Origin: Owenia fusiformis
Taxonomy: Eukaryota > Annelida > Polychaeta > Sabellida > Oweniidae
Direction of reading: 5' to 3'
DNA: 64,000 nt
NCBI GenBank assembly: GCA_903813345.2
Contig: CAIIXF020000001.1
Span: 22,959,915 to 23,023,914 of the forward strand
A program made the translations under genes and the position numbers. Positions 22,536-53,500 of this stretch are shown here, one piece after another. The notes under the pieces were generated by a model. It saw only the letters and a list, made by a program, of their open reading frames with translations. It did no database searches and was not told the DNA's origin. Positions within the stretch are counted from its first letter, which is position 1; each line of letters opens with the position of its first letter.

Positions 22536-25500
22536 ATGTCGTTTGATCTCGGATTGATGCTGCATACTCGCGAACGCAAACGCGCTTTCCAAGCGGGGCA
22601 TGTTGGAAAACTTGGTCGAGTCGCATCCTTGGAGGAGGAAGACAAAAGTCTGAATCAGTATGTACACCGAAAGGAATTTTCAGATCCAAACGTGAGAGCG
22701 CAAAAGAATGATTCCGAACATGACAACAAAGACGACGATAATATGGTTGCCCAGGGATCTAGTAAAGTGTCGTCTCCAGACTGGACACGCTTTGAATCGG
22801 CATATGCACGAGGTATAGTACCCAAAACATATTTACTCAATAATGGTACCTAAACATGTCATTTAAAAACATTTGTTCTAGCCTCTTTGGCTAATGTGTA
22901 GATTACGATCCAGATACTTTGATAATTTCGTCAATCTGATCACCTGATGTACAAGAGAACAAGTGTTGCGTACCACGTTTCTTGTAGTTTCACAACTCAA
23001 CTCGTCAAGACGTGATACCTAAAACAGCTAAAAAGTAATGGAATATGCAAGTTCCGTTCAATCACTTTAGAACAATCATAGGATATCCTATGATTTTGAG
23101 GAATATCATTTTTATCTTTGACGAGGTGATATTGATATCTGCACGAGAAAGCAAAGCGAACGAGTGCATACATCAATATCACAGAGTAGATTAAAATAAT
23201 ATTCTGAAAAAAAAACACGGGATGTTCTTATTATCTTATACTTACAAGGAGTGCACTAAATGTATATTTATCATTGCAAAATGCCAATTTCATGCCAAAC
23301 AGAGTCAATTTGGCGGGAAATCAACAAGCGAAGTACATCGTCACAATATCCTCCGCATATTGAGGTTTCCGGAGAATATCGTCACGATATCCTCCGCATA
23401 TTGGTTTTCCGGAGTATATCGTTGCGATATCCCTCCTGTTATTCATTTTGCCAATAGATATCAAATTTATTTTTTAATGTTATTATACATTTAGCGCACT
23501 AAGTGTAGGATAATGGGCAATATTCTAGGACATAAATACCTGTTTAGAAACACCATGTTAACATTGAAATGTACTTGATTAAACAATCGGTTTTAGCTGA
23601 ATCTTCAAAGTTACAAAGATCGATCGCTAAAAGGCCTTAAAAATCGCATATAAATAGATAATAATATTAACAGATCCTTTTTAGTGATACGATTCTTATC
23701 TTATATTTGATATCTCAGGTCGATACGACTGAAATAGCAGGAGAATATTTCTAATACAAGTATTGGCCTTATCCAGTGTTTATAATTGTTTTTATAACTT
23801 TTGAAAATAAGTCAACTGACCTACTTTCCCGAAAATATTTTGCCGCAAAATACCTATAAACGATTTTGGATTTTCCCATATAACACTAGTACACTATTCC
23901 ATTGTAATTATTGGGTAAAGTCAATATTAGATAATCCTTCTTGATATCAATTTATGGACTCGTGGATATTTGATATTAAATGTTCGATAAAAAAATGATA
24001 TCACTCAAAGTGATACTATATTCTGTCATCTACGGAATGGCCCAAAACAGGCCAAACCAAAATAGAAATATTTTACTTTTGACATTTTAGCAATCATTTC
24101 CATAGTAAAGTACAGAAAGTACTTTCAATGGATGTACCTATTCAGCCTATGTTATCCAATTTGTTACACTACGTTCCTTATTCCCTGTGCCATGAGCTAA
24201 AATCAAAATTGTGCCCCTTTTCCCAAAGTTTGAGGATATATACAATTGTATTTGTATACAATATTGTAATTTGCATGTCAACCATCGACTAATCTGTCTG
24301 CCCTTTCGCATCCTATTAATTTATTCTTTGAATTCAGATAGGGTTATATTGTTGGATATCATTATTGGAATACCTCATCAACGTGTACCATCTAAGGTTT
24401 TTGACAATGCTTCCAAATAGGTAAACAAAATGTTGTTGGCTGCCAGAAAATATAATTTCAATACCATTTGTCATGGTTTATCATAATGGTTTTCTTCGAG
24501 AATACATAATGCGGGCCTGGGAATGCGGCGTGTCACATTCATTGCAACACACCTTGCAACAATGTCTTATGAGGGTAATTTCTTATATTGAGAAGTTTAT
24601 CATCTGTTGAAATTAAATACTTGTAGCTATAAAAAGCGAATTTGTTTGACCAGTCCTAATGTGTGAGGAGGCCTTTCAGGCAATTTTCGAAAGCGTAGTG
24701 AGAACAAGTTTGGTGTAGAGGGGAGGGGGATATCTCCCACCTCGGTCTCTCTCTAATGCCTAGGCCACATATGCACCGGGCGCGGGCCGATGAGTAGTCA
24801 TCGGCCGATTTCTAAATTAGTTTCGACAAAAATTATGTAATTCTGCAATTTTAGTTACAAAACATGAAGGTACATTATGTAAAATTTTTAAGACAATTGG
24901 TGTATATTTAACAAAATACCAGCACCAGTCCTGTTACTTTTGGAACACCCTGGACCCTCTGGAGGTGTTAAAAAACTAAAATGAATCTGATATACACATA
25001 ATCACAAGTGAATCATCTATTAATACATCACTCTCATTTTAATAATGACAATTCTAGATTTTGATTTATATCAAAAGTGTTCAATTCAACAGGCTAGGTG
25101 CATTTGGATTTGTGAAATGCAACCTGTGTAAGGGTAAGTTATCTTATAAAGGTAAATGACATTCTATATAAGCTGCCCTAGTCATTCCACAGTTCCAGGT
25201 GTTATTTTGTGGAGCCCATGTCTTGCCACATCACACGTGGAAATGAGTTTGACAAACCTTGGACATCTTTCTTTCAGTCCATGGACTCTAAAATAACAAG
25301 AATTTGCATTGTCGGGAGCGTAAAATTGGTTATTTTGAATGCCGCCTCTTGTATTTTTCATCTGCCTCTTGTACACAAAGTTACTGAAACCACTGTATTA
25401 GGCATTTGGTGATTTCTGGGCAGTTTAAATGAACAAATATATTTATTGTATTAATACAACCAAAATCTTTTTTTTGAGTACATGAGGTTAACCGCTCATT

Positions 25501-28500
25501 AGATAATTTTATCATTGCAATGTGCTATTTGATGATATCTGGGTACTCTAAAATTAAAGTGTCTAAAACAATAGATATAATAATTTCAATTGTTTTTAGG
25601 GGTGTGAGATGTGGCCCACCCCCTCTGAAAAAATTATCATTTTAAGAGGCTATTAATGTGATTTCTGGGTAATTTTAAAGAGTATGGGTTATTAAAAAAG
25701 AAATTGGGAAAATATTCAATTTTTGGAGGGGGGTGTGCTAGAGGGGAGTGCGGTACCGGTATTTTCACAATGAATAGTATTTTCTTTGTCTAATAATGTG
25801 TTCTTGAATTACTTGTTATTTAGTTTTCATTGGTAGTTTTTACAGTTTCTATAAAGTCATTTGGTTGGCCATCATTGACATATGACAAAATAAAAGTTTA
25901 TTATTTTGCTGTTTTTGACGACATTGCATTGACGGGTATCCCAGGGATTTTACGAGTTCGCAATGACTATGATGAGATCCCTCAAGGATATGCTTTATCT
26001 TATTGTCATGAATTAAGTTACTGGCGACAATGAGAAGTTTACCTAAAGGAGTGGTATCGATATGGAGAACTTTTTGAACACACGTTTCTCTTAAACCAGT
26101 CATAAAAAATCTAAAAATTGTACACATCGTCAATTTAATGGTCATCTTTTGATATAATTTGAAAAATATATATATAGTTTATCTATATTGTTTTAGAAAA
26201 CACATCAAACACTTGAAAGTGAAATGAAACATCTTTCCGAACCTCATTGGAACAAAACGACATAAACAGTACATGTTTAGGTTTCTCAATATTGTAATTG
26301 TACAAAGGAATTGGTTGATTTAAAAAAAGTATCTTGTTAATGAAATAAAAGGTTTATATTGATTTTTATCTATTTTGGGGGGATTTTGTTTTAATTTTTT
26401 GAATACTTTTTTAAAATCAACCAAAAATTCCTTTAAATAACTATAATATTGAGAGGTCTAAAAACATGTTGTATATGCTATTTTGTTCCATCAAGGTTCG
26501 GAAAGACATTTTATTTCATTCTCAAGAATTGGTAGAAAGGAGCAAAAACAATTGCACTAAAAAAACAAAAAATGTTAACAAAAACAGTTGTATAAAATAT
26601 TTCTAAATAATTTTCGCATTAAATTGTTGTCAATCAGTCAACATTACATAAAATACCGTGTTTTTTACAGAATGTTTTCAATAATTGGTTTAAGAGAAAA
26701 ACATTGTTGAATTCAGTTCTCCATATCGATACCAATCCTTTGCTAGAGTTAAAGTTTCGTCCCCATATATGAGAAAATGAAATCTGAGCATTAACAATCC
26801 ACGACCAGCATTAAAGGAACCCAGTTTCTGGTTTTATCGTTTCATTTAAAATTCAAATATGACTGAATTGTATTGTTCCGACATAGCATCAATTCATGTG
26901 TAAAGATTTGGTTTTATTTTCCTATAACGACCCAAGAGATTAATAAAAAATCGAAATTCTTCGTCAAAAGTATTGATGCCCCTTAAACGTGATTTTGATT
27001 GACACCTGAGGTTCAAAATTGCTTGATTTTTGACCTTAGTACACTCAATGTCTCAGTGGGAATGGAGTTGCATCTAGCAATTTTAAATTAGCCGCGAAAC
27101 TTTTGACCAAATATGTTTGCGCTCTCATTTTCAATAGGTTATCACCCCAATTCAAATGGTATAGCTGAGGGCAAGAATACTGCATATTAAACCTTAATTG
27201 TATGCCAATTTTGTTTTGTTTTTCAAATATTTCTAAAGGATAAAAGTAAACATCAAATGTGTTTCCTGAGCAAAAGATATTAAACGCATCTGTTCTAGTT
27301 GATACAAACCTGATGCGTCTCGTATATTTTCTTATCTGAATTAGAGCATTTAGCCTCATCATTCACTGTCAAAGTTCTATGTTTTCTCTCTTGCAGGCTC
27401 GATATCTCACAGTTCAAATGAGATGACTATTAAATCACAACTAATTTTCGATCTACTTTGACGTTTACATGCCGAGTTGATGTTCAGCATATGGCCATAT
27501 ATCTTTCTTGGATGTGGGCTTTATTTAGAGACATCTACTTAATCCCTAATAAAGCTCGAATATTATCTGCACAAGTTCCGTGAACTCGGCTGAATCATGA
27601 CTTAGAACGCTCCTCTCATAAATGAAATATTGAAAAAGCCACCTTCAGTCTACTTGGTAGTTTTAAATCCCAGATTCCCGCAAATTGTTCGGAAGCAATT
27701 GTACGTATTATCAAGTATCATTATTCTCGCGCACCCCCCCCCCCCTCCCCCCTCCACACACACACATACAACGATAACCTTTACATTCTATGGACTGTTC
27801 TTTCCAGAGTTGTTCCCAGCAGGAGGTGGAGGTCATAAAACTCAGGAATTTCTTTTAGAGGTGACCAACATACTCATAGATTATGTCCACAAGAATAATG
27901 ATCGTTCAAAAAAGATTCTTGATTTCCACCACCCCCACCAACTACGCGAGATGATGGATCATTGTCTCGATCTCCACGAGGATCCACGAGATCTCGAACA
28001 AATTCTGAGTGACTGTAAAGAGACATTAAAATATTGTGTCAAAACAGGTAAATACAACAATTTCTTTTCGAAAATCTTGAGAATTGATAAAACAATTTTA
28101 CTCCTCTGAAATTTTGAAAAAACTTAAAGATCAACGTTTTAAACGTTGATACTAACAGACTAAATCTGAGTTTCTTAATACTTAAAAAAACCACATTGTC
28201 ACGAAGCACCCCTGATCTGAAAATAAATACAGCTCGACAAACGGTAACGCCAAGACCTAGATACATGTAACTCCATCGAATATTTCGTTCTTGCATAACA
28301 AGAGGTCTTGGGATAGGAAGATGGGACATGGAATGGAACATGGAACATCTTCAAATGTGGCTGTTCAAAATAATATTTTCGATAATACTAATCTGTGTTT
28401 GTATCATATAGTATGATTTTATTGCCTTGTTTTATGATATTAGTTATATTATGATATTAGTGGTTGGTTGTTAGCAAGAACATTTAACTGTGAGACAAAA

Positions 28501-31500
28501 TTATAAAAAAAATCAAAGGAACATAATTTCCTCATAGTATTTAGATGGTTATTTGTAAACAAATTAGATTAAATTAATCAAAAATTTAATAAAGTCAATT
28601 TAATTCCCCAGGTTTGATGATAACTAAAGCCCGGTATACACCAATGGGGCAAAATCCCACTTGCCCCATCGAGTCCCATCTTGCCCCATCGAATCGCAAT
28701 TTGCCCCATCGAATCCCACGAAGTCCCATGGGACCTTGATGACTTTGCCCCATCAATCCCCATGGAGTCCCATCAAATCCCACCGTGCCCCATTGGTGTA
28801 CATGTATGTCGGGCTTCACACAACACGTCATATGAGCGAAAATCCCACGATGCCCCATGGAAAGAATGAACATGTTCATTCTCGATGGGACTCCATGGGA
28901 CTCCGTGGGATTTTGCCCCATCTTGCCCCATCGAGTCCCACCGAGTCCCACGTGGGACTTCATGGGACCTCATGGGACCTCGTGGGACTCGATGGGGCAA
29001 GATGGGGTTTAATCCCACGAGGTCCCATGGAGTCCCACGGACTTCATGGGGCAAAATCCCAAAAGGTCCCACGAGGTCCCACGCAATGTTAAGTCTTTGG
29101 AGGCCCCAACTTGCCCCATTGGTGTATACCGGGCTTAATATGATCACGTTTAATAAGTTTATACTCGGGAAAGGTTCTTTAAAAAACAGAATGTTTTCTG
29201 ATTGTAAAAGTATTGCTATGATGGTGATGTTAGGAAGAGAGAAGTCCGATATAGTTTTGAAATATCAGACCCTTCTCGATTTCCAATCAGAATATTTTCT
29301 GATTGTAAAAGAATTGCTATGATTGTGATGTTCAGAAGAGAGAAATCCGATATAGTTTTGAAATATCAGACCCTTCTCGATTTCCAAAAGAATTGCTATG
29401 ATGGTGATGTTCAGAAGAGAGAAATCCGATATAGTTTTGAAATATCAGACCCTTCTCGATTTCCAATCAGAATATTTTCTGATTGTAAAAGAATTGCTAT
29501 GATGGTGATGTTCAGAAGAGAGAAATCCGATATAGTTTTGAAATATCAGACCCTTCTCGATTTCCAATCAGAATATTTTCTGATTGTAAAAGTATTGCTA
29601 TGATGGTGATGTTCAGAAGAGAGAAATTCGATATAGTTTTGAAATATCAGACCCTTCTCGATTTCCAATCAGAATATTTTCTGATTGCAAAAGTATTGCT
29701 ATGATGGTGATGTTCAGAAGAGAGAAATCCGATATATTTTGAAATATCAGACCCTTCTCAAATTCCTCTCTATTTCTGTGTAACAAGAGAAGTCAGTATC
29801 ATCCTCTTGTATACATGTATAAATCATTATGATAAAGACTCAGTCTCCACCTTTCTTGGAAATACGGAAAAGAATTATATATAAAAATGCGGAAGTTTCT
29901 ATAATTCTAACCACAAATCACCGCAACATAAAATGACAAATTCAAGGTTTGGTAGCCCAGATGTTATTGACGCACGATAATCAATTACCCATTATACTAA
30001 ATGTTGCGAAATGTAACACTCGAATTAATTCAACTTAATTGTTTGCAAATTTAATCTGTAATATGTTGACCGTTTTGGCGATGGACAAGAAATAATTGAT
30101 TAGACCTCCAACTCTTTTCTTTGCCTCAGAAGTTTAAACTATTTACCAAGCTTCCATCAAGAACACATGACAGCTTCCCAGTAAAAATCGAAACTATCGG
30201 GCAGTACTTGAATGATGACAACTTTCCAGGAATAGTCGGTAGAAGAGCTTACATTACTTTTGGTTATGACTTAGATTTTAGAACATGGCGATCAGCAATG
30301 GCGTAAAAAGGGCACAGGTCAATAAAAATGACATTAATATGTAAGAAACTGTAATATTCTCGAGCTTCTCTTGCCAGCTGTTACCAATTGTGTAAATCAC
30401 AGGGAGCTCAGTGGAAAATTAGACAATAATGTCTCGTTAACACTGTGCCAGAATAACTGAGATGGATATTTAAATCAATTTAGATTTCCTTGTGGGCGGA
30501 AAATTTCCAGCGTTTTTTAATCCATATAACAAAATATCTGATTAATATATCAATGTGCCTACTGATTTGGTACAACTGATTTACATGTACAGGTGTATTG
30601 CGTTGTGATTTTCAATAACATCTATGGAGGTACTGTGAGGCACGGGCAGGCGAGGCTAGTGCCTCACCATAATTTCAACTAAAACTGGAAATGAATCCCA
30701 AAGGTAGTAATATACATTCGTTGACCTTTAGCCTTTTGCGCTTTTTGTTTAGTTATAATTATGATATCAGTCATATCAACAATGATTTCAAACCATGATT
30801 TCAAACAGTACGCCCTTTTTTATCTATCAGTATCTTAACCATGGACGACATTTATAAAAGAAAGCGCGTGCGAAAGATTTCAGTGAAACTGCATTCGATC
30901 CTTTCCATATAGTTTGAGAAGAAGCATAATTCATAAATTGTAAACGTAATACTTTTACTCCTTTTGTCATTTTCAAATATATTCAAACCAAGGGCAAGTA
31001 AAAGAATAGTCTGATTCCATTGAAATTTGCATTTCTTCGATAATGATGAATCATTACATCAGTAGGTATAAGCTCATGATTATTTAGAATGACGATATGA
31101 GCAGTGCTTAGAATCACATCCTCTCCAGACAAAATTTTTTTTTATCAAAATCGTTGGTATGTTTTGTTCAAAATAGTGAGTAGCCAAAATTCAATGATTT
31201 TTAATTAAAGGCAATGGTCTAACTTTGAATAATGTTTAGGTCATCCAAGATTTTTCAACCAGCTGTCTCAGGGCTTGGACATAGTGGCACTTGCTGGGGA
31301 ATGGCTCACTGCAACTGCGAATACCAACATGTGAGTGCTCATGAACGTATCTGTTACAACATTATGCGAACGTATATGTTACAACATGTTGCGAACGTAT
31401 ATGTTACAACATGTTGCGAACGTATATGTTACAACATAATGCGAACATGTTACAACACATTGCGAACGTATATATTACAACATAATGCGAACATGTTACA

Positions 31501-34500
31501 ACACATTGCGAACGTATATATGTTACAAGATACTGCGAACGTATATGTCAGAACATAATGCGAACGTATATGTTACAAAATGTTGCGAACGTATATGTTA
31601 CAACATAATGCGAACGTATATGTTACAACATAATGCGAACGTATATGCTACAACATAATGCTAACATATATGTGAGAACATGTTGCGAACATATATGTTA
31701 CAAAACAATGGGAACGTATATGTCACAACATGTCGCGAACGTATATGTTACAACATAATGGAAACGTATATGTTACAACATGTTGCAGACGTATGTTATA
31801 CCATATGAAAAAGTAAGCTAATCCGTATACAATGCAAATCATACTGACGCCCAAGCTTCATCATTTGAAAAAGAGTTTATGGCGCATGTGCAGTGACATG
31901 GAATAAAAAGAAAATAATCATCGAAATGTATTTCATTTGACTTGTCCAATGTATCTTGACTGGCAGCTGACTATCTCGGGCACAATATACGAAATGTACT
32001 TCACTCAGTTGCAAATCATTAAACGTCCTGCATATTTATAGCTCATTGTATTTAATTTTGGCATGTTCGCGTATGAGATTGCCCCTGTTTTTTGTTAGGT
32101 TTACATACGAAGTCGCCCCGGTATTCACTCTGATGGAAGACATAGTGCTGACCAAGATGAGAGATATTGTTGGCTGGTCTGATGGTGACGGAATTTTCGC
32201 ACCAGGTTTCAATCTTTTTTATCTCAAAATAAGACAGAGTTATATTTTCGAAATATGAATTATGAAATGAACAATTACAAATAATAGCCTCCTTCTAGGC
32301 TTTCTCTTAATTTCTTTTTCTTAGTTTTCGTATTCTAATTTTGTCTCTGGAACAAAACACAACGTTCAGTATATTGAGCAGACGTAGGGTTTAAATGACA
32401 TGTATCCCATGCTTAACTTCTTTCGATGAATTCTATATGAAGCAAGAGAATGTTACTAAACATATATCAATTGCCAACGTACATTCACGTAGGTAATGTA
32501 GCTTCTAATGTGTGATATAGGGGGCGCCATTGCTAACTTGTATGCTGTTTTGGCCGCTAGGCATCGCTGCTGTCCAGAGCAAAAAGCACAAGGAATGTGT
32601 GGACTCACCAGACTTGTAATGTTCACATCAGAGCACGTAAGTTTACCAATCTGAAAGAGACACGAGGGGAGGAATAAACTACATACACAAAATAAATACT
32701 TGAAATATGAACTATAAAACCGATCCTCAAATCCAGAGCGGTCGATTTACTACGATGAGAAAAAGAGGTAATTAAACCCTAAATTCGAACAGAATTCTTC
32801 CGCAGGGACAGATTTTTATTTAATAATCTGTCATCTAAGAGGGAATTATTTCTAACCTTATAACTCAACTCAGCTTTAACTTGCAATAGCCGTCTCTTGT
32901 GTCGATGGTTCTCGAGAGCTCATTTACATAATCAGAAATGTTCCCTGCGTGGGTGTAACATCAATATGCGTCCTAACTAAAGTCTGATCGTCAGTTGACG
33001 TGGGCTCTTCTGTTGACAAACTGTAAAATCAATCTTCGCAGTTTAAATAAAAAAACTAAATTTTATGAACATTCGATATGGTTAATCAAACTTAAAATAA
33101 TCTAACTCTATAATTAACGAGGAAATTAATACGACTCTAAATTGTTTATTCAACTAACAGTGCGGTAATCGTAATAGTGATATTGTTAAATTTACTGCAC
33201 TTTTTCTTCGATTACAGAGTCACTTCTCAACCAAGAGAGCTGCCGCTATTGCAGGGATAGGCACCGACAACTGTATTGCCGTAAAATGTGATGAGAGGTT
33301 AGTGTTTCGGTGATGTACTATAGTTACATGAGTTAGGAGTCACATTTTGTCTAGTAACAAAGAGCATGTCCAATGAGGCGTAAAGGTCAGATAACTAAGG
33401 ATGAATTTGACCTAGATTATAGATTCATCGTGCAACTGTACGTTACAGTCACTTGTGAACGTGGAATGAATATAGAACTCATAATCGGTCTTCCTTAGCG
33501 CAGTCGGTCCTTTGGGAATGGAGCATTTTGCGAACAGTTTACTTCTAATTTGTGTCATGTTGAATGCTTATTACAGATAAGAGACTCAGGTCACCATATT
33601 AATTGGTTGAAGATGGACAAACCATTCTTTATAAAGTCCCGTCAGAAAGTCTTCGTATTAGTCCACAAACTCATACCCAGTCTTAAGCATATTACGGAAA
33701 AGAATCACATACAGAAAAGAATCCTTGTATACAAGGTGGTCCGAAAATATAGACATAGTGATTACTTTTCTCTTATTTACTGTCTTTTTTCTTATCATAA
33801 CTCAGGTGCCATTGCTACAGTGTATATTTTGCTTTCTAGAGGAAAGATGATTCCAGGGGAACTTGAGAAGTGTATTCTCCAAGCAAAATCAGAGGGTGCC
33901 AAACCATTCTATGTGACATGTACCACCGGTTCAACTGTTCTTGGGGCGTTCGATCCCATCAATGAAATAGCAGATATATGTGAGACATATGGAATGTGGA
34001 TGCACGTGGACGTACGTATCAGTCCTTTAAGGCCACATATAAGTTTAAACCACTTTACTTATATTGTAGTCCTACCCAATGCTATCAAAATGTGATATGT
34101 TAAACTTTTTTCAAAATTTTAAAAGAGTTTTTTGAAGGACTTGTTTCGGAAAATCGTTAACTAATTTAAATTAAAATTAAATTAAACTTTAGAGGTCACA
34201 CTTATTTTTGGTTCGGTTCTTAAATAAGCAAAAAATTACTCATCTATGCATCAAAGTTGCTCACAGAAAATTGTATTTTAAAATTATAGTTCTTATAGAA
34301 ACCAATGGTGCGGTGACATTTAAAACATAATGCAAATCTTTTTTAATTAAACTACAGTTCATTCTATTTAGTTGCTTGTTCTGTTAATTAATATTAAACC
34401 TCATTTAGGAAGCAACATAATAGAATGAACTTCTTTTGTTACAGCTAAGCTAACTTAAAAATTCTCCTACATGTTATCCATGTTCAATATATATCTCTAA

Positions 34501-37500
34501 AGCCCCTGAAGGAATTACTTATTCCTTTAAAGGGTTTATTTGTGTGTCAAAACGCAACATATTGATGCAAATAGAAATTGAAAAAGCAGGGTAGGAAGAA
34601 GTTCGAAATCAGGACAGCATTTCAGAAAAAAACATGTGGGTGGGTTGTTTGCATCCATACCATACCATATACCGTTCATAGTAGATCTAGACAATGTGTG
34701 TTTTTAAGTCTACAATTTGCTGTAGAGGGGGGTGCTGTTGTTTTTTGACACCCTGTACAGTGTAGACTATAGCTATTCGTACTGGAAGAATTATTTCGCC
34801 AAATAGACATTTCCCATGGTTTATCTAAATTGATTATTCTTTCTTTAATAGTACCTAATCCATTATGTTCTTATTACAGGCAGCTTGGGGCGGAGGTGCT
34901 CTGTTGTCCGAACGTTATCGCCATCTTTTCAACGGAGTAGAGAGGTACACATATATGTAAAAATATCTAATAATTCTATAATTTTAAGCATTCGTATGGG
35001 ACAACTCCATCTTTAAGACATTCCTGAAAAAGCAATATGCTCTATCATCGAATATTGTTCAAAATGGAATAATGATAATCTGTTTTTATAACTGAACCGC
35101 CATCCTGTCCTTGAATGATTTCATAAACTATGCTATTATGATAGTTTTTCTTTGTACCTTTGCATATTCCTATATCCTAAATACCATTTCTTTAGATGTG
35201 ATTCCATAACATGGAATCCTCATAAAATGATGGGAGTTACTCTGCAGTGTTCAGCTATTCTACTAAAGGAGAAGGTATCTTTGATTGAAACCATATGTAT
35301 TTATGCTGTCACCATTGCACATAAATTATACAATTACACATACATATCACCATTGCGCATACGTGCCACAATTATCAATGCATGTCACCATTGTACGTTA
35401 ATGTCAATATTACACATGTTTCACCATGGCAACCATTACACATGCATTCATGTCAGTATTACTCTACATGTCACCATTACCCATAGATGTCACTATTACG
35501 CAAATATATTGCAATTACATGTATATGGCACTTTTATGCACACATCATGTCACCATTACACACACGTGTCACTATTATACATGTATGTCACCATTACACA
35601 CACACGTCACATTTACACGTACGTCTTTCATGTCACCACTTCAGATACTTGCCACTATCATGTGTACGAGTCGCAGTTACACGTGGATGCTCACCATAGC
35701 ACATTCATGTCACCAGTATATTCACATGTCACAAATACATTCACATGTCACCACTACATTCACACACACACCCGGGCTGTTTTACACAATCTTCTATCCT
35801 ATAGCTTTAGTGCAACTTCAATAATTCCGCTTCCCACATTTTTAATAATGACCTCTAATAAGGTGACATGAGGTAGTCAAAGAGCTTTAGAATGCAAACC
35901 TTGGCTTTCAGGATCTCAACTGAGTAATTCAGAACTGTTTTTAGTTCCGATGATGCCCTTTAAAGGCGACCTCAGTCTAAAATGTGGAATGACCTTACAT
36001 GACCCAAAAATGAGTCTCCAAATTCAAAAAGTAGTTCAAATTCATAGTAGTTATTGACCAGCCAAACGACCTTTATTGTCACATTAGACTTCGAATGTCG
36101 TTTTGGTCGACACATAGGGATCGAAACCAGCCATAGTTTTCTCTTCATGAAATATTGTGCTTTATGGATTATGATGTTGGCTTTGAGGATAGATGTTGAC
36201 CCTTTGTTGACCCGTCTGTGGATTTGGGATAGGATTTTATTTGTCCCACATCATTTGAGACAGGGTGCTCTATCTTGTATTTGAATACTACATGTAGATA
36301 TAGTATGTACAACTATTTTTGATGTCATGAATATTGGTTATCAATTTAAATTCATTCTTCAACATGTAATGACTTCAGTAAGAATGAAATGTCTCTTTTT
36401 ATGGCCCTTTATTGATTGTGATAATGGTGGGGGAGGGGTATTCCCGGGGGTATGAGACATTAACCCTAGTTACTCTAGCAGTAAGGAGCAGTGTGAAGCC
36501 TGAACATACAAAGTCCATTTAGGAAAAAATATTCCAAGCTTAAGCAAAATAATGTACATGCGCTCGAACTGTGAATGTATGTTATCATTAGGATTTAATG
36601 GATTCGAGTTGTAGAATCATAAAGTCTTATATGTTCAACTTCTTCAGGTTGTAAATTTTTGATACATTGAGTAGTTTTTCAAATATTAAATGGTAAAATT
36701 TTAAATAAAACTTGGCCATTAACAAGTTCACATACACATTTGTGTTCTAATCAAGTCATAGACAATTTCTGGTTTTAGATGTTGTACTTTTTGTATGTTT
36801 AAAACAGTATGCTAATTTCGAACTTGCTACAACAAACAGATTTCCAACTAGATAAATGGACTGCATGTGAATTAAATTGAATGAGTGATTAATCGATTGA
36901 TTTATTCTCAATAAATTGATTGATTGCTCGGTTCCATGTATCAGTCGATTCATGCATGAATGGTGCCACAATATTCACAAGTTCTTTTTTTGTACCGTGC
37001 ACACTCTAAGGGCAGACTCAGTTACATGGAACCCTCACAAGATGATGGGTGCCATGCTCCAGTGCTCCGCCATTTTGTTAAAACACAAGGTAAAATATCG
37101 TAAGTCTTGTGATCAGTTTTGATAAAACCAAGTCGCTTGTGTCATTCTGTGATGTATTCCCCATCATGTCGTTCGCATTATGATTTATATTCACAACTGA
37201 TTTCCCATCGCATCTTTTATCGCATAATTTTATTTATGAATTGAAAACACAGTACTTTTACGATATTTTTCCTTGTTTTGCGTTTGTTATATTCCTCTGC
37301 TATTTTATTCTTTAATGCGTTGCACGGTTTATATGTATATGTTTATATGTTTTAGTTGTTTTTAGCATTATGTAGTCAAACAAAGGGGCAGCAAAGACTA
37401 GAGACCTCCTAACTTTCTAGAAACTGTCACATTTTTACAATGCATTTTGCTCACAATATTCTCTTTCGTGCCTTTTTTCTCAGTTTTAACCCTTTCTCAT

Positions 37501-39948
37501 GGTAATCGTTTATTTAAAGATATTTGGCCTTCACTCTAAAGGTGAATTCTATGCCTTCTACTTGTGATCAGATAACTATTAAGGCTGTAAGAGAAACATC
37601 GCCATGTATTTTTAAAATATCCCATCCAACATTTTAGACTCTATTCTTTGATGCTGCTTTAACCCTAGTTTAAGTGCCCCATGTATAGCCACAAAACTTT
37701 GTGTAGGCAAGATCCACTACCTCAATCATCCCATTCTATAAATTCCATAATACTTCTATATATAAACATTCATATATCTGAAATGAGATGGAAATCAAAA
37801 GTATCAATACAAAAATACTCGTTTTTATAATTCTTTTAAAAGCTTTTTACAAAAAAACTAATTTTTATAATTCTTATAAAAGCTACAAAAATACTTTTTT
37901 ATAATTCTTATCTTAAAAAGCTACAAGAATACTTATTTTTATAATTCTCATAAAAGCTATAGAAAAAGTGATGAATAAAAGTTACTTATAATGTCTTAAT
38001 GTATTAAGTAGAGTCTGTTTCCCTTGTTGAATACATTAACGTCTACTATACTTAGCGACTCCGTTTTAACACTTTCAAAATGCTTTTAGGACATTCTGAA
38101 GAATTGTAATTCCATGTGCGCAGACTACCTATACCAACAAGACAAGCACTATGATGTTGTTTACGATACTGGAGATAAAGCGATACAATGTGGACGACAC
38201 AACGACATCTTCAAGCTGTGGCTAATGTGGAGAGCAAAGGTATTGAGACGGTTTGCCCACCTTAAACAATGCTTCTTTCGATATTACATCATTCTGATAC
38301 TCATCACATCTTTCTGTGTTCATCTAGAAAGAAGCTGATAGACACCTGTGATTTTACATGATGATATTACATAGTCTAGATACATCAGACTTGCACACAA
38401 GTGTGAGAAGGTGTTTAGGCAAGTAGTCGAGGGTTCACAGAGGCTTGTAGCTAGACTACTAGATGTGCAGTCATATTTTTGAACACCCTGAAGATGAAGG
38501 CTATGTATTATGGATATGTTTAAAGGCCCCATATAAAGTTTAAACCACATCGTAATAGTTAATAACTTTCACAGTCATGAAACATAATAGTAAATGTATG
38601 ATGAAAACCTTTTTTTTCAAACTTTGCATGGGGCCTTTAACAGAGGTATACAATTTTCAATCCAACCATGTTAAAGGATTTAAAGGATAATTTAAACGGG
38701 TTATCTGTCATTTTGATTAATTATGTGATGATTCTATTGTTTTAGGGCGATAAAGGACTTGAGTCTCAGATAAACAGAGTTTTTGAGCTTGCAAAGTAAG
38801 TAGACTTGAACAGGGTCTCCAGAAAAGATCGTCCCTTGATTAAACGCTATAATGACTTTCTAGACACTCTTAACTCACAGTATATAGGATTAGAATTATG
38901 ATCACATTATTGAAAAGTATAACTTGTAAGTATAAGATGCAATTTTGATAAATAACAGTGTTGTATATTCCATATTCTAATACAATTTCTTAAAATTATT
39001 AGGTATTTAACAGAAAAGATACGAGAAAGGCCTGGATTTATGATGGTGATGGATGAGGTACATTTTAAGATATATCATGGTTGTAGCCAGCCATGAGGCA
39101 GGCGAGACATTTGCCTCTCCAAAATTTGGTAGAAAACATTTATGTAACCTTTTTTCAATTGAAATCCTGTCAATGAAAAATGATAGTATCGTACAATGTA
39201 TATTACGTTTAACAATTTTACACCACTTTTTTCTCGCATTGCCCATTTCTTGATCCTTGTTACACCCCTGTATACTGGCGGACTTAAACGCAGTAATCAA
39301 TGAATTGTGGGTTGCATAATGCTCTAGTTTTCTTTATGCTTATAAAAACGAGGTCTTTAAACGAGCTCCTAGCCATTAAGTGTGATTAATAGTTATTTAT
39401 CAAATGGAAAGCTCTTTTGGTAGCATTTATTTCTGTAATAAGCACGAAATGAAGTGTGTTTTAATGTTTTCAGCCGGAATATACAAACGTATGCTTCTGG
39501 TATGTGCCATCAAAGATCCGGCATTTGGAACAAGGGAAAGAAAGGGATGACGAATTGTCCAAGGTAGGGCCGGATTGAAAATATTTTTCAGGATAATAAT
39601 TGTCTAAAGATTATTTTAGAAACGCAATTTTGGATAATCAAATGGGCTAGACGAGGCCAGACTCGACAGACGTGAACAAAGCATTGATCTTTTAGTAAAC
39701 GTAAGATTATTATCATGTCTACCTGAATTTCAATGCATTTACAATACCATTGCATTGATTGAACATACTTTCAGGTGGCTCCTCGTATAAAGTCGATGAT
39801 GATGGAAGGTGGATCTACGCTTGTGGGATACCAGCCACTAGGAAAGAAACCAAACTTTTTCAGAATGGTAATCAGCAATCCTGCAGCAACTAAGGAGGAC
39901 ATCGATTTTCTATTAGAGGAAGTTGAACGTTTGGGTGAAGAAATATAA
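22536..39948 (+). CDS. GAD: Glutamate decarboxylase (GAD), 14 exons per transcript, complete, with a duplicated exon 9
   Basis: GAD is a PLP enzyme that converts L-glutamate to GABA in GABAergic neurons. Exons: 22536-22812, 27808-28047, 31240-31330, 32099-32205, 32521-32636, 33218-33297, 33840-34011, 34880-34944, then either 35196-35274 (9a) or 37011-37089 (9b), then 38090-38239, 38746-38795, 39003-39057, 39474-39563, 39775-39948. All are GT-AG and phases chain to 1746 nt (581 aa plus TAA); human GAD67 is 594 aa. Family marks: [46 protein letters not shown] and NPHK (PLP lysine, residue 393). The catalytic loop reads [17 protein letters not shown], keeping the Tyr of the GAD loop where human cysteine sulfinate decarboxylase has Leu, so GAD is favoured over CSAD/GADL1. 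The ATG lies in TACCATGTCG. The N-terminal 92 residues are charged and unconserved. AATAAA occurs near 40809. Confidence 0.95.
22813..26044 (+). other. GAD intron 1, first part
   Basis: No exon was recognised. At about 23325-23440 a ~40-bp unit containing ATATCCTCCGCATATTG and TTCCGGAG is repeated about 2.5 times. At 24765-24825 a sequence beginning TGCCTAGGCCACATATGC and containing CATCGGCCGAT resembles half of the 140-bp MITE at 21236. At 24926-24965, GTCCTGTTACTTTTGGAACA recurs at 55268 and looks like a shared transposon end (GGAACACCCTG). Confidence 0.5.
26045..26741. mobile_element. Inverted-repeat MITE with a second palindromic element nested inside, GAD intron 1
   Basis: The outer ends AAAGGAGTGGTATCGATATG and CATATCGATACCAATCCTTT are inverted repeats, continuing with TTCTCTTAAACCAgT and its complement. 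A short copy of the same family (56472-56718) lacks the middle. That middle (about 26212-26526) is itself an imperfect palindrome with arms containing CTTTCCGAACCT, CTCAATATT and GGTTGATTT, centred near 26370. The simplest reading is one MITE inserted into another. Confidence 0.8.
27729..27775. repeat. Low-complexity C run and CA dinucleotides
   Basis: A C-rich stretch followed by CACACA lies just before the acceptor of GAD exon 2 (27808). It may serve as an extended pyrimidine-rich region. No other function is seen. Confidence 0.7.
28628..29135. mobile_element. MITE with AGCCCGGTATACACCAATGG ends and TAA target duplication
   Basis: The left terminus AGCCCGGTATACACCAATGG and the right terminus ending CCATTGGTGTATACCGGGCT are exact inverted repeats, flanked by TAA (28625-28627 and 29136-29138) as in PIF/Harbinger elements. 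The interior is made of many short units in both orientations, such as TGCCCCATCGAGTCCCA and TGGGACTCGATGGGGCA. A partial internal end at about 28786-28816 (CCCCATTGGTGTACATGTAT) suggests an earlier duplication. Long frames on both strands come from the repeat units. It lies in GAD intron 2. Confidence 0.85.
29186..29758. repeat. 101-bp tandem repeat, about 5.5 copies, GAD intron 2
   Basis: The unit includes AATATTTTCTGATTGTAAAA, GAATTGCTATGATGGTGATG, TTCAGAAGAGAGAAATCCGA and CAGACCCTTCTCGATTTCCA. One copy (about 29391-29470) lacks some 22 bp. Copies are almost identical, so the expansion is recent. The open frame through it has no domain. Confidence 0.85.
31345..31800. repeat. ~25-bp minisatellite at the start of GAD intron 3
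   Basis: Units of the form GCGAACGTATATGTTACAAC plus ATAAT or ATGTT occur about 18 times with variation. The array begins almost directly after the donor of exon 3 (31331). Length would be expected to vary between individuals. Confidence 0.85.
32060..32098 (+). repeat. Partial duplicate of the GAD exon 4 start
   Basis: Directly upstream of exon 4, the sequence ATGTTCGCGTATGAGATTGC can be read as [10 protein letters not shown], a close match to the first residues of exon 4 (F-T-Y-E-V-A-P-V-F). No AG precedes this copy, and it runs straight into the real acceptor TTGTTAG at 32098. It is a relic of a tandem exon duplication or of the old exon end. Confidence 0.65.
35196..35274 (+). CDS. GAD: GAD exon 9a, PLP-lysine exon, first alternative
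   Basis: This 79-nt exon encodes [10 protein letters not shown] followed by [16 protein letters not shown]; the Lys of NPHK forms the Schiff base with PLP. Acceptor CATTTCTTTAG|A and donor AAG|GTATCT are good. It joins exon 8 (ending AG) in frame. It differs from exon 9b at 5 of 26 residues. Its Lys-Glu-Lys end resembles vertebrate GAD. Confidence 0.92.
35330..35790. repeat. Degenerate CACCATTACAC-rich tandem repeat, between exons 9a and 9b
   Basis: Irregular units of about 14-24 bp built from TGTCACCATTACACA and ACATGTCACC repeat some 20 times. Overlapping frames rich in His, Thr and Tyr result; none is supported as a gene. Confidence 0.75.
37011..37089 (+). CDS. GAD: GAD exon 9b, PLP-lysine exon, second alternative
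   Basis: Also 79 nt, this exon encodes [10 protein letters not shown] followed by [16 protein letters not shown]. The acceptor CTCTAAG|G has a weaker pyrimidine tract than that of 9a; the donor is AAG|GTAAAA. It joins exon 8 and exon 10 in frame exactly as 9a does. The start A-D-S resembles the CSAD side of the family. No stop or frameshift is present, so it is not a dead copy. Confidence 0.92.
37800..37965. repeat. ~45-bp AT-rich tandem repeat, 3-4 copies, GAD intron 9
   Basis: Units contain TTTTTATAATTCTTATAAAA and GCTACAAAAATACT. They lie about 125 bp before exon 10. Confidence 0.7.
38524..38636. mobile_element. 113-bp MITE with TTAA target duplication, GAD intron 10
   Basis: AGGCCCCATATAAAGTTT on the left pairs with AAACTTTGCATGGGGCCT on the right. 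TTAA flanks both sides (38520-38523 and 38637-38640), as with piggyBac-type insertion. A decayed half copy is at about 34026-34066 (AAGGCCACATATAAGTTTAA). Confidence 0.8.
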
Positions 39949-47585: not shown

Positions 47586-50500
47586 TTTTTAGCTTATTAT
47601 TGCTTGTGTTGTAGCACATACAATCAGGTGTGTGAGACATCAACATGCACAAAGGCAACGACACAATATGTCTTGAACGACATCTTTGAGGAATACAGAG
47701 GAACGACATGTTGGGGAAAATGCAGTAAGTTTCTTTGGCGCTTGGTTGTTCCTTCTTTACAACTCAACACTTCCTCCCAAGAAAAAGTGTATATCAATAC
47801 TTCTCATTTTGATTTTGCCTTTTACAAACAAACATTCAGAATTAAAAACATGAAAAAAAGTAAATTAAGAAAAAGACTAGAAGCTAGTCTTCATACCATT
47901 GTAGAAATATATACATATTGTGAAAATATCGGAACAAAACAATATGATACAATACGTTTAACTATTGTTTTGTAACGAAGAGCTCAAAATATATCTTCAT
48001 ATTTAATCTTCTAGCAAGCGCTGGACAATGGAACGCGTGGGGAAATTTTGGTGCATGCTCAACTACATGTGGTAGTGGTACCTACTGGAGATATCGTACG
48101 TGCGCACGAACATCGAGCCAGTCAGCCTGTGTTGGTAAGACAATATGGCCGGAGTCAATATTGGGGTGGAGGTTTGGGTCAAATGCTCATACAAAAGCAG
48201 CCATGTTAAATCCGGATAGAATTGTGAACTTTTATGCCTACATCAAAATATTGAGTCGTAACCGCTTGGTACACTTCATAGCCATTCAGGCCGGGTCACC
48301 TCTCTATATTTCCTATATTGAAAATCCAGGTGTTTAATAAATTGTGTTTATATCATAATGGGCTTGTTCTTGTAGGCTACGATACTGAGAGTCAGAACTG
48401 TAACACAGATGCTTGTCCTCCCGCTCCCGCTGGCTGTTCTTACAATGGCTGGTCCAGTTGGTCGACCTGTTCGGCAACCTGTGGACCTGGAACAAGAACA
48501 GCAACACGCACTGATCCCAAAGATCTTATCAACTGTGTAGAAACCCGTAATGAGGCCTGTACTGTCCAGGCGTGTTGGCGTGAGTTTCGTTCAAATCTTT
48601 TTGGCCAGTTTGCTGCACATTTGTATATTTCTGTTTGAAGTCCAACAACAGTAAAAGCTATTTAAGACTGCCAAAGGTTGCCCTAAAAAGTTTATTCGTT
48701 TTCTTCAAATCTAGTGGTATTGTTTATCTGTTAAATTAAACTTGTATCTAGCGTGTCAATATGCTTATTACCATTACTTATGGAGCACCAGGTAGTTCAT
48801 TAAATTCCGACCTTATGTCATTTAAGACTTCAACTGAGTGTCTAAAACCCTTAAGAGGGGTGTATTTGGTCTCAACTATAGCTCGTTTTATCATTTGTAG
48901 AACATGGAGGTTGGAACGATTGGGGTCTGTGGACTGGAACATGCGTTACCTGTGGAACACCCAATACTCTGACGCGACAAAGGGCATGTGATAACCCAGT
49001 ACCGATCGGGACAGGAAGATACTGTCTTGGGTCCAGTGAAGAAGTTCAGAATTGCCCCTACATGGGACAATGTCCTGGTATGTAAAAATCTATAACACAG
49101 TAGATTTTAACTAAATTTTCATATGAATGGGCTTGGGTGATGGCATTACCCCAGTCAATTACGGATTAGTCCATTAGTCCATTAACCCTATAACATTCTT
49201 CTAGAATTTGTCCTTAATATTGTCGCGCCTGGGCCGATTCGCCGAGCACCCTGTATACTGGGGAAAGGCCTGGGACGACGAAAAGGGATCTTTGGAGGTG
49301 TTTCAAGGGTGTCGACCTGGTTTGGTGGTACGACAGTTACCAATAGAAGATGGCTCCACAAAACAATTATGAACAGGGTTTTTATAATCTATTCTAACAT
49401 AAGTTTTTACAATATAATAACAAAATGTCCATATAATATACAAGTTTCTCTTCAAGAGTCGTCTCTGCTCTGGAGCTTGTTTAACACTAAGAGTCACTGC
49501 GTCTCTCTATATTCTCCTCCTGTAGTTTGTTCAGCTCTAGGAGTCACTACGTCTCTTAATCTTCTGTATGGAGTTTGTTCAGCTTAAGGAGCAACCTCAG
49601 CTCCGGGAGTCACTTCGTCTCTGGGGAAACCACGCAAACTCTCTCTCTTGGAAGAGTACCAGCCTCTAGAGCACTCTCTGCTTGGGAGTCGCCACTTCTC
49701 GATAAAAACCTCTGCTCTTGGACGATTCACACGCTCGGAGTATCTCAGCTCGGAGTCGTCTCGTCTCAAGAGAAATCAACGCAAACTCTGTGTCTCTTGG
49801 AGCACCTCAGTTCCGGTAGTGTAACTTTGGCTCAGACACAAACTCTGTCTCTGGAAGGGGTCCAGGCTCTGGAGCAACCTCTGCTCGGGAGTCGCCACTT
49901 CTCGGGAAAAACCCTCTGCTCTTGAACAAGATTCACACGCTCGGAGTATCTTAGCTCGGAGTCGTCTCGTCTTAAGAGAACAATGCAAACTCTGTGTCTC
50001 TTGGAGCACCTCAGTTCCGGTAGTGTAACTTTGGCTCAGACACAAACTCTGTCTCTGGAAGGGGTCCAGGCTCTGGAGCAACCTCTGCTCGGGAGTCGCC
50101 ACTTCTCGGGAAAAACCTCTGCTCTTGAACGAGATCCACACGCTCGGAGTATCTTCAATTGGAGTCCTCTCGTCTCTATAAAACTGTCTCGTGGAAGGGG
50201 TCCAGGCTCCGGGAGTATCTTCTGCTCGGGGAGTCGCCACTTCACAGGAGAAACCTCGTCACCCTCTACAGAGAAATAACACCTCTGGAATGTCAATCAG
50301 ATGGTGAGATTAGACCAGAGCTGCTACTTCTCGATCTCAGAGTACCTTAGTTCCGGTGGAGTAACCTTGGCTCCAATGGAATAAACCTTGCAACACAGAA
50401 ATACCTTGGTTCCAGTAGTGTAACCTCAGTATCTAACTTCTGGAGGAGTCAAATCACCTCGGAGGGTACATCAAGTTCAGCAACTTGTATCAATTTCGGA

Positions 50501-53500
50501 TCATCAATAACTCGGAGGAGGAGAAGAAGCAACTCACGAATATCGATCATTAAACTGAGATTAGACGGAGTTGTATTCTCAACCCTCGGAGCAGATTCCA
50601 CTCTAGAATAGATGGAGGAGTAAGCACTCGGAGCAGTGAGTCCTCAGAGTAGGTATGGCTCTCAACTAGATGGAGGAGTAATCACTCGGAGCTGGCAATC
50701 CTCGGAGTAGGTATGGCTCTCAACTAGATGGAGGAGTAATCGCTCGGAGCTGGCAATCCTCGGAGCAGATACAACTCTCGAATATCAATCACAACGGAGA
50801 TTAGACAGAGCTGTAACTACTCGGACCAAATATAACTCAGAGGAGATATAACACTTAAATAATTGGAGGAGTAATCACTCGGAGCTGGCAATTCTCGGAG
50901 CCAATGGAGGAGTAATGACTCAGAGCTGACAGTCCTCAGAGCAGACACGACTCTCGAATATCAATCAAACTGAGATTAGACAAGAGTCGTACCTACTCAA
51001 AGCCAATGTAACTCGGAGGAAAAATTGTTCTAAAAATGGTTGGAGGGGTAATAACTCGGAGCAGTGACCTCTTGGAGCAGACGCGACTCTCGAATATCAA
51101 TCAAACTGAGATTAGACAAGAGTTGTAACTACTCAGAGAAGGAATCACTCCTTAAAATGGCGTCACTTCCGTAAAAAATAAAGATGGCCGACCGCAGGGA
51201 ACTCTGGGAAGAAGAAATCAAAATGGCGGACGGCAATATGGCGTCAAACTCAATAATCAAATTGTCACTCACCAAAGAACTATCTATTGTCTTGTCTTTT
51301 CCCCAATTGTCGCAACGCACGCAATTTACATCAAGCAATAGCAGCAAATAGTCAAATAATATCCAAATATAATCCACAGTTGTAATCAGCCACGCTCGCA
51401 CATAAAATGCCCCAAACTGACGAGGTCCTGCTTGTACAAAATCTTGGTAAGCTCTGATTTACAGGTCACGATCTCACGCTAAAGTCCAGACATCTCAGGT
51501 TGCATTATGGGAAAACACAACTTAAGTTGGCGGTAAATTCAAATGAAGCAATCTGATTGGTTGAGCTCTGTTGCTGAGTGCCTAATTATTCTAATTTATT
51601 CCACTACAGTCTCCTGATCAAGTAAACATCCAAGTTACAGGGACGGAACATTGAATAAACATGACATAACATAAAATCTTGTAAAATAAACGTTTATATG
51701 CCCTAGTTACTACTCAGGGGGAATTTAAAATTCCCACAATATTGTTCATTTGAGACTAAATATTCCATTGTATGAGAATGATCGATGTCGAGTATTGGAA
51801 ACCTTTTTTTGTTTGTTCTTGTACTTGCATTTTACTAACTTCGAATCAGTATGATTGAAAAGTCCAGTCTTGTGGTTTTGAATTGTGATCTTGATTTCCG
51901 AATTGCGAGGGATGACATTTTGTCATGTTAATTCTATATGGCTTGTGGTTTCTTTTTGCAATCTCTTTGGTTTATTTGACAGAATATGTAATTTATACGG
52001 GTATTGTTGTTTGCAATATATGTTTCCATGACTTCATGCGGGTCTTAATGTGTTTGGTGTATCTGTTTTCAGTCGACGGGGCATTTGGAAATTGGATGGC
52101 CTGGTCAACATGTCGCTCCCCAACTAAAGATACATGTGGAAGTGGAACGCAGGTGCGCTACAGAGTGTGCAACAACCCACAGCCAAAATACGGGGGCAAT
52201 CCTTGTACTGGTGTCATAATGGAGACACAAGCCTGTGACCTCGGGGTCTGTAACACAAGTAGGTCTCACGACAATATAAATTATAAGCATGATGTAAATT
52301 ACAGTCATACTTTGTTTTGTCCGAACTTATATAGTATACCATTGCATGAACGTAAAGAAGCTGTCATATTAGCCGTGTAAGCTCAAGTTTCGCCACCGTG
52401 TGGCTAAATTTTGCATAATTTTTTTTTACTAACAAAACTTGTATTTGGTGTGACTATGGAAGTATAGCTGTAAAACGATTTGTTTTGCCCACCGTGTTTC
52501 TATGCCGTGCCCCGCCGTCTGCCCAAAAGTATTGACACAGCCTAAGTGTGAAGGAATTCTAACTTCTCTCTACTTACCAGGATATAGCTTATATAATTCA
52601 TGTTTCGTTTTCCAGAGTGTCAAAACGAGGCGGACATTCTCCTGATAGTGGACACTAGCGGCTCGATTAACGACCAAGAGTGGGCTGACCAGTGCAATAT
52701 GATTTACGACTTTATCGGGGCCCTTGATGTTGACAGCGGCAGGATCCGCGTTGCGGTTGAAGTTTTCAGCAGAACTGTGAAAACTTCTTGGGATTTTGAC
52801 GACCATGATGGGGATTCAGCAGCCATGTTGGATAAAATTGCGAACAGTTGTCAGGGATTAGAAAGAGAAAAATCAACAACGAACCATGCGGGTGCTCAAA
52901 GACACGCTATATCTGTAAGTTTACGCTATATATCTGGAAGTTGATGATACCCTTATTTTATTATTTTGATCAATTCGGTTCATCTATTGCTTAGAAAATA
53001 CTTGTAAAACGGTTATCTTTACTGGGACACCCGATCTATAAAATGAATGTATATATCAACCATATCTTAACTCCAGAATCTTTGGGGACAAACCTCAAAA
53101 GGAGATCGACTTAATGTTGTCAACGTTGAGTTCATGCTAACTGATGGATGCTCAACATTAAATGCAGATCAAACAGTGATAGCCTCAGATGAAACACATG
53201 CTAGTCCAGAAAACATAACAGTCATTGTTGCTGCTGTTGGCGAGGATCTTACTACTAATCAAACTTGTATGGATATGATGATAAATATGGCCACGGGTGC
53301 TGATCCTTATGCATTGGGAACTCTTGTTGAAACCACCGATTTTGTAGATTTGACAAATAAAGTTGATGAATTGGTTACAAAGACTTGCTTGTGTAAGTAC
53401 TTGTATTCAATGTTAAACATGTTTTTCCTGAATGGTATTTTAGTATAGTATTGCTATTGTGGTTATTGCGCTTATCGTTATCGAATTCAAGTCTTACATG

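Follow-up and report, generated by a model that had tools for sequence, protein, structure and literature searches.

Tandem exons for the PLP-lysine segment in a glutamate decarboxylase gene of the annelid Owenia fusiformis are most likely mutually exclusive

Can a single annelid gene supply two glutamate decarboxylases by choosing between two exons that each carry the catalytic lysine? Vertebrates make GABA with the products of two genes, and these two enzymes bind PLP with different strength. Owenia fusiformis is an early-branching annelid, and production of two enzymes from one of its genes by swapping the catalytic-lysine exon would, if true, be an independent solution to the problem that vertebrates meet with two genes. 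Here we examine the locus that raises this question, from the anatomy of the exon pair to its age, its possible regulation, and its meaning for the enzyme.

The window (the whole 64-kb stretch of DNA that was analysed) lies on contig CAIIXF020000001.1, contig 1 of the 498-Mb O. fusiformis assembly, and contains an intact glutamate decarboxylase (GAD) gene (Table 1). Exons 2–14 (27808–39948), joined with either of two versions of exon 9, here called 9a and 9b, read as a single open frame (488 residues and a stop codon), and the 488 residues obtained with 9a are 100% identical to part of the annotated O. fusiformis protein P0001 (581 residues, unnamed product). The gene product scores 438.9 bits against the Pyridoxal_deC domain (Pfam PF00282), and among the matches listed it reaches 65% identity with vertebrate GAD1 and 69% with a nemertean GAD. 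Within a set of proteins with solved structures the ranking is GAD1 (756 bits), GAD2 (702), CSAD (572), and GADL1 (566). The assignment to an invertebrate GAD gene made in the preliminary description is thus borne out: judged by its sequence, the gene is a GAD whose nearest named relatives are GAD1 enzymes. Both exon versions contain the NPHK motif with the PLP lysine, and glutamate is the predicted substrate of both. A general listing of 66 PF00282 matches in the assembly included no contiguous GAD retrocopy, and the gene itself matches exon by exon.

Table 1. Features of the GAD gene in the window (positions counted from the first base of the 64-kb stretch)
Feature	Position	Strand	Evidence
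GAD coding exon 1, from ATG, GT next	22536..22812	+	tblastn of P0001 vs window; donor read
GAD exon 2	27808..28047	+	AG/GT, frame, tblastn
GAD exon 3	31240..31330	+	frame join, tblastn
GAD exon 4	32099..32205	+	frame join, tblastn
GAD exon 5	32521..32636	+	frame join, tblastn
GAD exon 6	33218..33297	+	frame join, tblastn
GAD exon 7	33840..34011	+	frame join, tblastn
GAD exon 8, partner 5′ of 9a and 9b	34880..34944	+	frame join, tblastn
Exon 9a, 79 nt, PLP-lysine segment, version in P0001	35196..35274	+	frame join, P0001 match, tblastn
9a–9b intron, 1736 nt	35275..37010	+	frame join
Minisatellite rows, period 19 or 38, in 9a–9b intron	between 35309 and 35764		
Exon 9b, 79 nt, alternative PLP-lysine segment, absent from P0001	37011..37089	+	frame join, tblastn
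Inverted repeat (20/22) 5′ arm, across 9b 5′ splice site	37082..37103	+	
Inverted repeat (20/22) 3′ arm, in intron 3′ of 9b	37258..37279	+	
GAD exon 10, downstream partner, site of frameshift stops	38090..38239	+	frame join, tblastn
GAD exon 11	38746..38795	+	frame join, tblastn
GAD exon 12	39003..39057	+	frame join, tblastn
GAD exon 13	39474..39563	+	frame join, tblastn
GAD exon 14 incl. stop codon	39775..39948	+	frame join, tblastn

The structure of the pair is that of interchangeable exons. As first proposed, 9a and 9b are equal in length and phase, each coding for the corresponding 26 residues that surround the PLP lysine, and their positions and GT-AG borders were verified. The first base of each completes a split Arg codon common to both, the end of each coincides with a codon boundary, and AG precedes and GT follows both exons. 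At the protein level 21/26 residues are identical (tblastn E about 3e-13), a likeness that is not due to chance, and the five differences (9a/9b: C/A, I/V, V/A, T/M, and E/H) are those originally listed. Either exon alone leaves the frame open. Inclusion of both, or of neither, shifts it, again as claimed: with both exons the shifted frame passes through 9b and stops in exon 10, and with neither the third full codon of exon 10 is a stop. Searching the 64-kb window by tblastn with the protein, we found exon 9 only in these two copies and every other GAD exon only once in complete form. The most likely interpretation of 9a and 9b is a pair of tandem-duplicated exons that are mutually exclusive.

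An artefact of assembly, in which two alleles (haplotypes) of one exon had been set in tandem, would mimic such a pair. We found no point in its support. The 9a region (34860–35300) and the 9b region (36800–37400) each match at 100% only to themselves in the 498-Mb assembly (over 60 bases, the 9a-region query is also 82% identical to an exon of one paralog), and the number of base differences between the exons (26/79), together with introns that cannot be aligned, far exceeds allelic variation. This explanation is refuted in substance and its probability is negligible.

The pattern of divergence between 9a and 9b speaks to how old the pair is and to what has kept it. Twenty-five of the 26 differences fall within the 78 bases of the coding part, distributed over codon positions 1, 2, and 3 as 5, 3, and 17 (third-position excess, P = 4e-4 binomial test). 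Synonymous sites are saturated (pS 1.1) and dN is 0.13. We simulated a pair in which one copy was free to decay and the other took only synonymous change, run to the observed divergence (n = 10,000). Such pairs accumulated 13.8 residue changes on average (minimum 8) and contained stops in 56% of cases, and 0/10,000 had five or fewer residue changes and no stop; under a simpler neutral model, 0/20,000 simulations reproduced the pair. Codon positions, pS and dN, and simulations all indicate protein-level selection on both 9a and 9b. Beyond the exons, similarity was at the level of shuffled sequence when the 200-nt flanks and the two introns were aligned (the real scores were equalled or exceeded by 22, 73, and 52 of 200 shuffles). 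Because synonymous sites are saturated, residue changes few, and introns unalignable, we infer from the sequences that the duplication is old and that strong selection has kept both copies for their amino acids.

This conservation bears on the idea that 9b is a poison exon, which would be added next to 9a to cause a frameshift and nonsense-mediated decay and so lower the amount of GAD protein. The stop in exon 10 when 9a and 9b are joined is just what such an exon would produce. However, a poison exon has no need of a conserved amino acid sequence, yet one has been kept here in the face of saturated synonymous sites, and 9b alone gives an intact protein. We regard a poison role as the sole function of 9b as very unlikely, and it could be additional to a coding one.

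Duplication at the scale of exons may not have been confined to exon 9. Within intron 3, six bases 5′ of exon 4, a stretch at 32063–32092 (+) contains ten codons that resemble the exon 3–4 junction: 20/30 bases are the same, 8/10 differences lie at third codon positions, and 0/1000 shuffles of intron 3 reach its 8/10 residues. Since TGT TAG comes next in frame, the stretch looks like a truncated relic. It points to a second (decayed or truncated) duplication in the GAD gene, so that exon-scale duplication probably happened here more than once.

We also surveyed the GAD family in 15 stretches of the same genome by scanning for NPHK-like motifs, a procedure that a copy without the motif would escape. 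Three further GAD-family genes (C1 ~39.97, 40.00, and 7.37 Mb) each have one 79-nt exon 9 in the motif scan from exon 8 to exon 10. Other PF00282 matches (on C2, C6, C7, C8, and elsewhere on C1) were covered by the motif scan only, save for looks at L014, L015, and the C6 repeat. Several observations accompany this survey. The GAD-family paralogs L016 and L017 (C1 about 39.968 and 39.997 Mb) lie ~30 kb apart, and exon 9 of L017 starts with Cys-Asp-Ser, as does 9a, and ends with Lys-His-Lys, as does 9b. At C2 21.99–22.05 Mb (L019–L023), PF00282 matches form a minus-strand cluster in which the scan showed no NPHK-like motif. At L009 3265–3633 (C6:6480764–6481132, minus strand), three near-identical 135-nt exon copies with splice-like ends stand head to tail with short gaps; the host gene resembles aromatic amino acid decarboxylases, and the triplication looks recent and could be polymorphism or an assembly matter. 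Derivation of 9b from a paralog was considered and set aside: 9b shares 57/78 bases with L016, 9a shares 53/78 with L016 and 55 with L017, and the segments are too short for a decision.

How might the choice between 9a and 9b be made? The intron that separates them measures 1736 nt, which rules out steric exclusion as a simple mechanism, in keeping with what had been argued from the spacing. A second candidate mechanism arises from the 9a donor, GTATCTTTG (35275–35283, +), which resembles a U12-type 5′ splice site with T at +6 as the main exception and scores +8.6 against −20.8 to −2.5 for the other 12 donors on an approximate U12 matrix. If 9a were followed by a minor-spliceosome U12 donor, it would be unable to join the U2-type acceptor of 9b, and joint inclusion would be prevented. 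However, the 9a donor lacks C at +6, which is near-invariant in U12 5′ splice sites, and inspection by eye found no good U12 branch site 5′ of exon 10. Furthermore, the 9b donor, which has to be joined to the same acceptor as 9a, that of exon 10, does not look like a U12 site, nor, by eye, do the corresponding intron donors in three paralogs. Given these last two points, little weight falls on U2/U12 incompatibility, and we hold it to be highly improbable.

RNA pairing offers a third class of mechanism. To look for docking and selector sites, we took the best pairing of intron 8 with each of the later two introns; both were at shuffle level (55 and 56 of 60 shuffles reach them). A pairing across 9b (35974–35991 with 37623–37640, 16/18) is borderline, with 3/60 shuffles reaching it. 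The clearest signal is local to 9b: the last 8 bases of the exon and the first 14 bases of its intron pair at 20/22 with a segment farther into the intron. At the 14 other splice sites tested (n = 15 in all), the best inverted-repeat pairing was 14–17 of 22; 0/134 sampled positions in the region reach 19 of 22, and 0/500 dinucleotide shuffles of the local 241 nt reach 20/22. The duplex has an energy of −20.4 kcal/mol, and the local fold z is −2.87 at the 9b donor (1/200 shuffles as good) vs. +1.90 at the 9a donor, where no counterpart of the hairpin arm was found (15/22 only). The inverted repeat had no further copies as a dispersed repeat at the sensitivity of the assembly search. Computed accessibility at the 9b donor, though low, is not out of the ordinary, with a mean unpaired probability of 0.16 vs. 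0.10 for the exon 8 donor and 0.16 for that of exon 10, and 18/120 random positions are as low. We consider the predicted hairpin over the 9b 5′ splice site a possible control element. Its double strand would be partly exonic, which makes RNA editing conceivable.

The protein record contains one of the two versions. P0001, the sole Owenia protein listed from a collection of 5.8 billion sequences (cluster size one), carries 9a, and a 172-residue query containing 9b returned no Owenia fragment with 9b among the best 120 of 605 matches, the top match being from Lingula (72%). The collection is clustered at 90% identity, so the missing fragment is weak evidence against use of 9b. These facts would fit a 9b that is itself a relic, an old duplicate dropped from splicing and retained by chance, as would the hairpin that covers its 5′ splice site and the clear exon relic 5′ of exon 4 in the same gene. 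But the splice sites and phase of 9b are intact, and none of the one-sided neutral simulations described above retained 21/26 residues without a stop, a result with which a very recent loss of use would be compatible. We judge a relic to be unlikely. Instead, the evidence makes it quite probable that 9a and 9b are a functional, alternatively used exon pair, a judgement that concerns neither the hairpin nor any enzymatic difference. One isoform would then be missing from the public protein set.

If the pair is used in this way, exon 8 would be joined to one of the two, 9a or 9b, which in turn would be joined to exon 10. Transcripts with both exons or neither would presumably be removed by nonsense-mediated decay, given that their reading frames end in exon 10, 5′ of four further exons. 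The version in the annotated protein, 9a, may be the default and 9b the regulated alternative, possibly through the hairpin at its 5′ splice site. The products would be two full-length PLP-dependent glutamate decarboxylases with five second-shell differences near the catalytic lysine.

What the swap would mean for the enzyme depends on where these differences fall. In P0001 numbering, with the PLP lysine at 393, 9a and 9b differ at 384, 387, 397, 398, and 408. In a 13-sequence GAD alignment none of these positions is invariant or even 90% conserved. Twelve positions of the segment are invariant in that alignment (386, 388, 389, 391–393, 396, 399–402, and 405), lysine 393 among them, and at each of these 9a and 9b agree. 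The preliminary description had placed the differences exactly at the cofactor pocket. The exon does hold the PLP lysine, but all five differences lie outside the invariant and 90% conserved positions. For a broader view we took 264 other proteins among the matches listed, of which 251 contain the NPHK segment (13 dropped) and 198 pass a three-motif GAD-like filter (53 dropped). In these 198 proteins, which are rich in vertebrates and do not give independent counts, position 384 is Ala in 191 and Cys in 1, position 387 Val in 157 and Ile in 7, position 397 Val in 151 and Ala in 23, position 398 Thr in 11 and Met in 0, and position 408 Glu in 148 and His in 14. Each version therefore combines common and rare residues, 9a standing out at 384 and 9b at 398.

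A switch of substrate between glutamate and cysteine sulfinate, which had also been suggested, finds no support in these residues: at segment positions 12 and 15, 9a and 9b are both unlike the named CSAD and GADL1 segments compared. The sequences do not indicate a change of substrate and remain compatible with a kinetic difference. A structure model of P0001 built from the 13-row alignment has a mean pLDDT of 63.3, with residues 1–209 and 418–444 below 50; its exon-9 part is better (10-residue mean pLDDT 94, 67, and 88 over 381–410), and strands 386–389 and 401–406 flank lysine 393. Our reading is that the five differences may act as second-shell tuning around the catalytic lysine. The two enzymes might differ modestly in cofactor retention, stability, or rate, and not in substrate, and they would form a clean natural comparison for learning which residues around the lysine govern how well PLP is retained.

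We also asked whether other animals have a lineage resembling 9b. At position 25 of the segment, His occurs in gastropod, Lingula, and two hemichordate segments. Most gastropod segments share “TKH” near the end with the Owenia paralog L017, so 26 residues are too few to tell descent of the exon from descent of a paralog, and this candidate was rejected.

The most far-reaching reading joins these elements: by exchanging the exon that holds the PLP lysine, one gene would yield two enzymes for GABA synthesis that differ in cofactor cycling or stability. This would be the analogue, at the level of splicing, of the vertebrate division between the GAD65 and GAD67 genes, and an RNA hairpin across the 9b 5′ splice site would control the choice of 9b. 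As a whole this reading is tentative, and we consider it doubtful that all of its parts would hold.

We know of no GAD exon pair of this kind in vertebrates, and mutually exclusive exons in a GAD gene were not described in any of the matches listed from the open-licence literature. The comparisons that follow draw on excerpts of the cited papers. In the excerpt on human DDC, “mutually exclusive” is used of first exons (PMC7697000), and the only paper found that joins Owenia and glutamate decarboxylase names the enzyme, in its excerpt, in an acoel (PMC9949801). The vertebrate GAD1 forms GAD25 and GAD44 arise from inserted exons of 80 and 86 bp that bring stop and start codons 5′ of the PLP site and lead to shortened proteins, as that source's excerpt describes (PMC4295415). 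The Owenia gene is likewise a GAD gene in which alternative splicing, here proposed from sequence, would affect the decarboxylase made; unlike those truncating insertions, it would swap homologous exons (PMC4295415).

The closest parallel is in coq-2, whose equal-length internal exons 6a and 6e (134 nt in Caenorhabditis elegans) are mutually exclusive in helminths, annelids, and molluscs; as excerpted, their use was seen by RNA-seq and by exon deletion in C. elegans, and the choice of exon alters the quinone made (PMC7434440). Like coq-2, the GAD pair concerns a metabolic enzyme, consists of exons of equal length not divisible by three, would exchange a portion of the enzyme core, and occurs in an annelid. 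In contrast to coq-2, with its RNA-seq and changed quinone, use of the GAD pair is predicted from sequence, and the pair has five differences with no sign of a substrate change (PMC7434440). The kind of exon pair is therefore already known, and among the open-licence papers listed the GAD case appears to be new. If the pair is used, a PLP decarboxylase would join coq-2 among the metabolic enzymes whose core is remodelled by exon swapping.

Other systems resemble the Owenia pair in part. Tandem exon substitutions in human genes are described, in the excerpt, as ancient homologous exons, enriched in nervous tissue, that mostly keep key residues and change mostly conservatively (PMC9741552); the GAD pair is similar in its homologous exons, mostly kept important residues, mostly conservative changes, and ancient origin. 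GAD1 is named 0 times in the main text of that paper. Competing RNA structures act at mutually exclusive exons, with steric, U2/U12, and decay mechanisms also given in the excerpt consulted (PMC6071210). The Owenia locus shares with competing-structure systems a tandem exon pair and intronic complementarity; unlike docking systems, it has one hairpin, over the 9b donor only, and no shared docking site stood out in the pairwise test (PMC6071210).

The remainder of the window contains other features. Introns 2 and 3 of the GAD gene contain a 101-bp tandem repeat and an 18-copy 25-bp minisatellite (29187–29766 and 31343–31781). Exons for thrombospondin type 1 and von Willebrand A domains (Pfam) lie 3′ of GAD at 48282–48635, 52597–52941, and 59142–59477 (+), and probably belong to one or more extracellular matrix or adhesion genes. 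On the minus strand, a 167-codon open frame at 12471–12974 has no Pfam match and resembles what we take to be the end of a LINE reverse transcriptase. Also on the minus strand, 18365–19050 contains three overlapping open frames composed of a repeated YPMAHMVYRFIQWPIWYTDLSNG-like unit, a coding-looking satellite.
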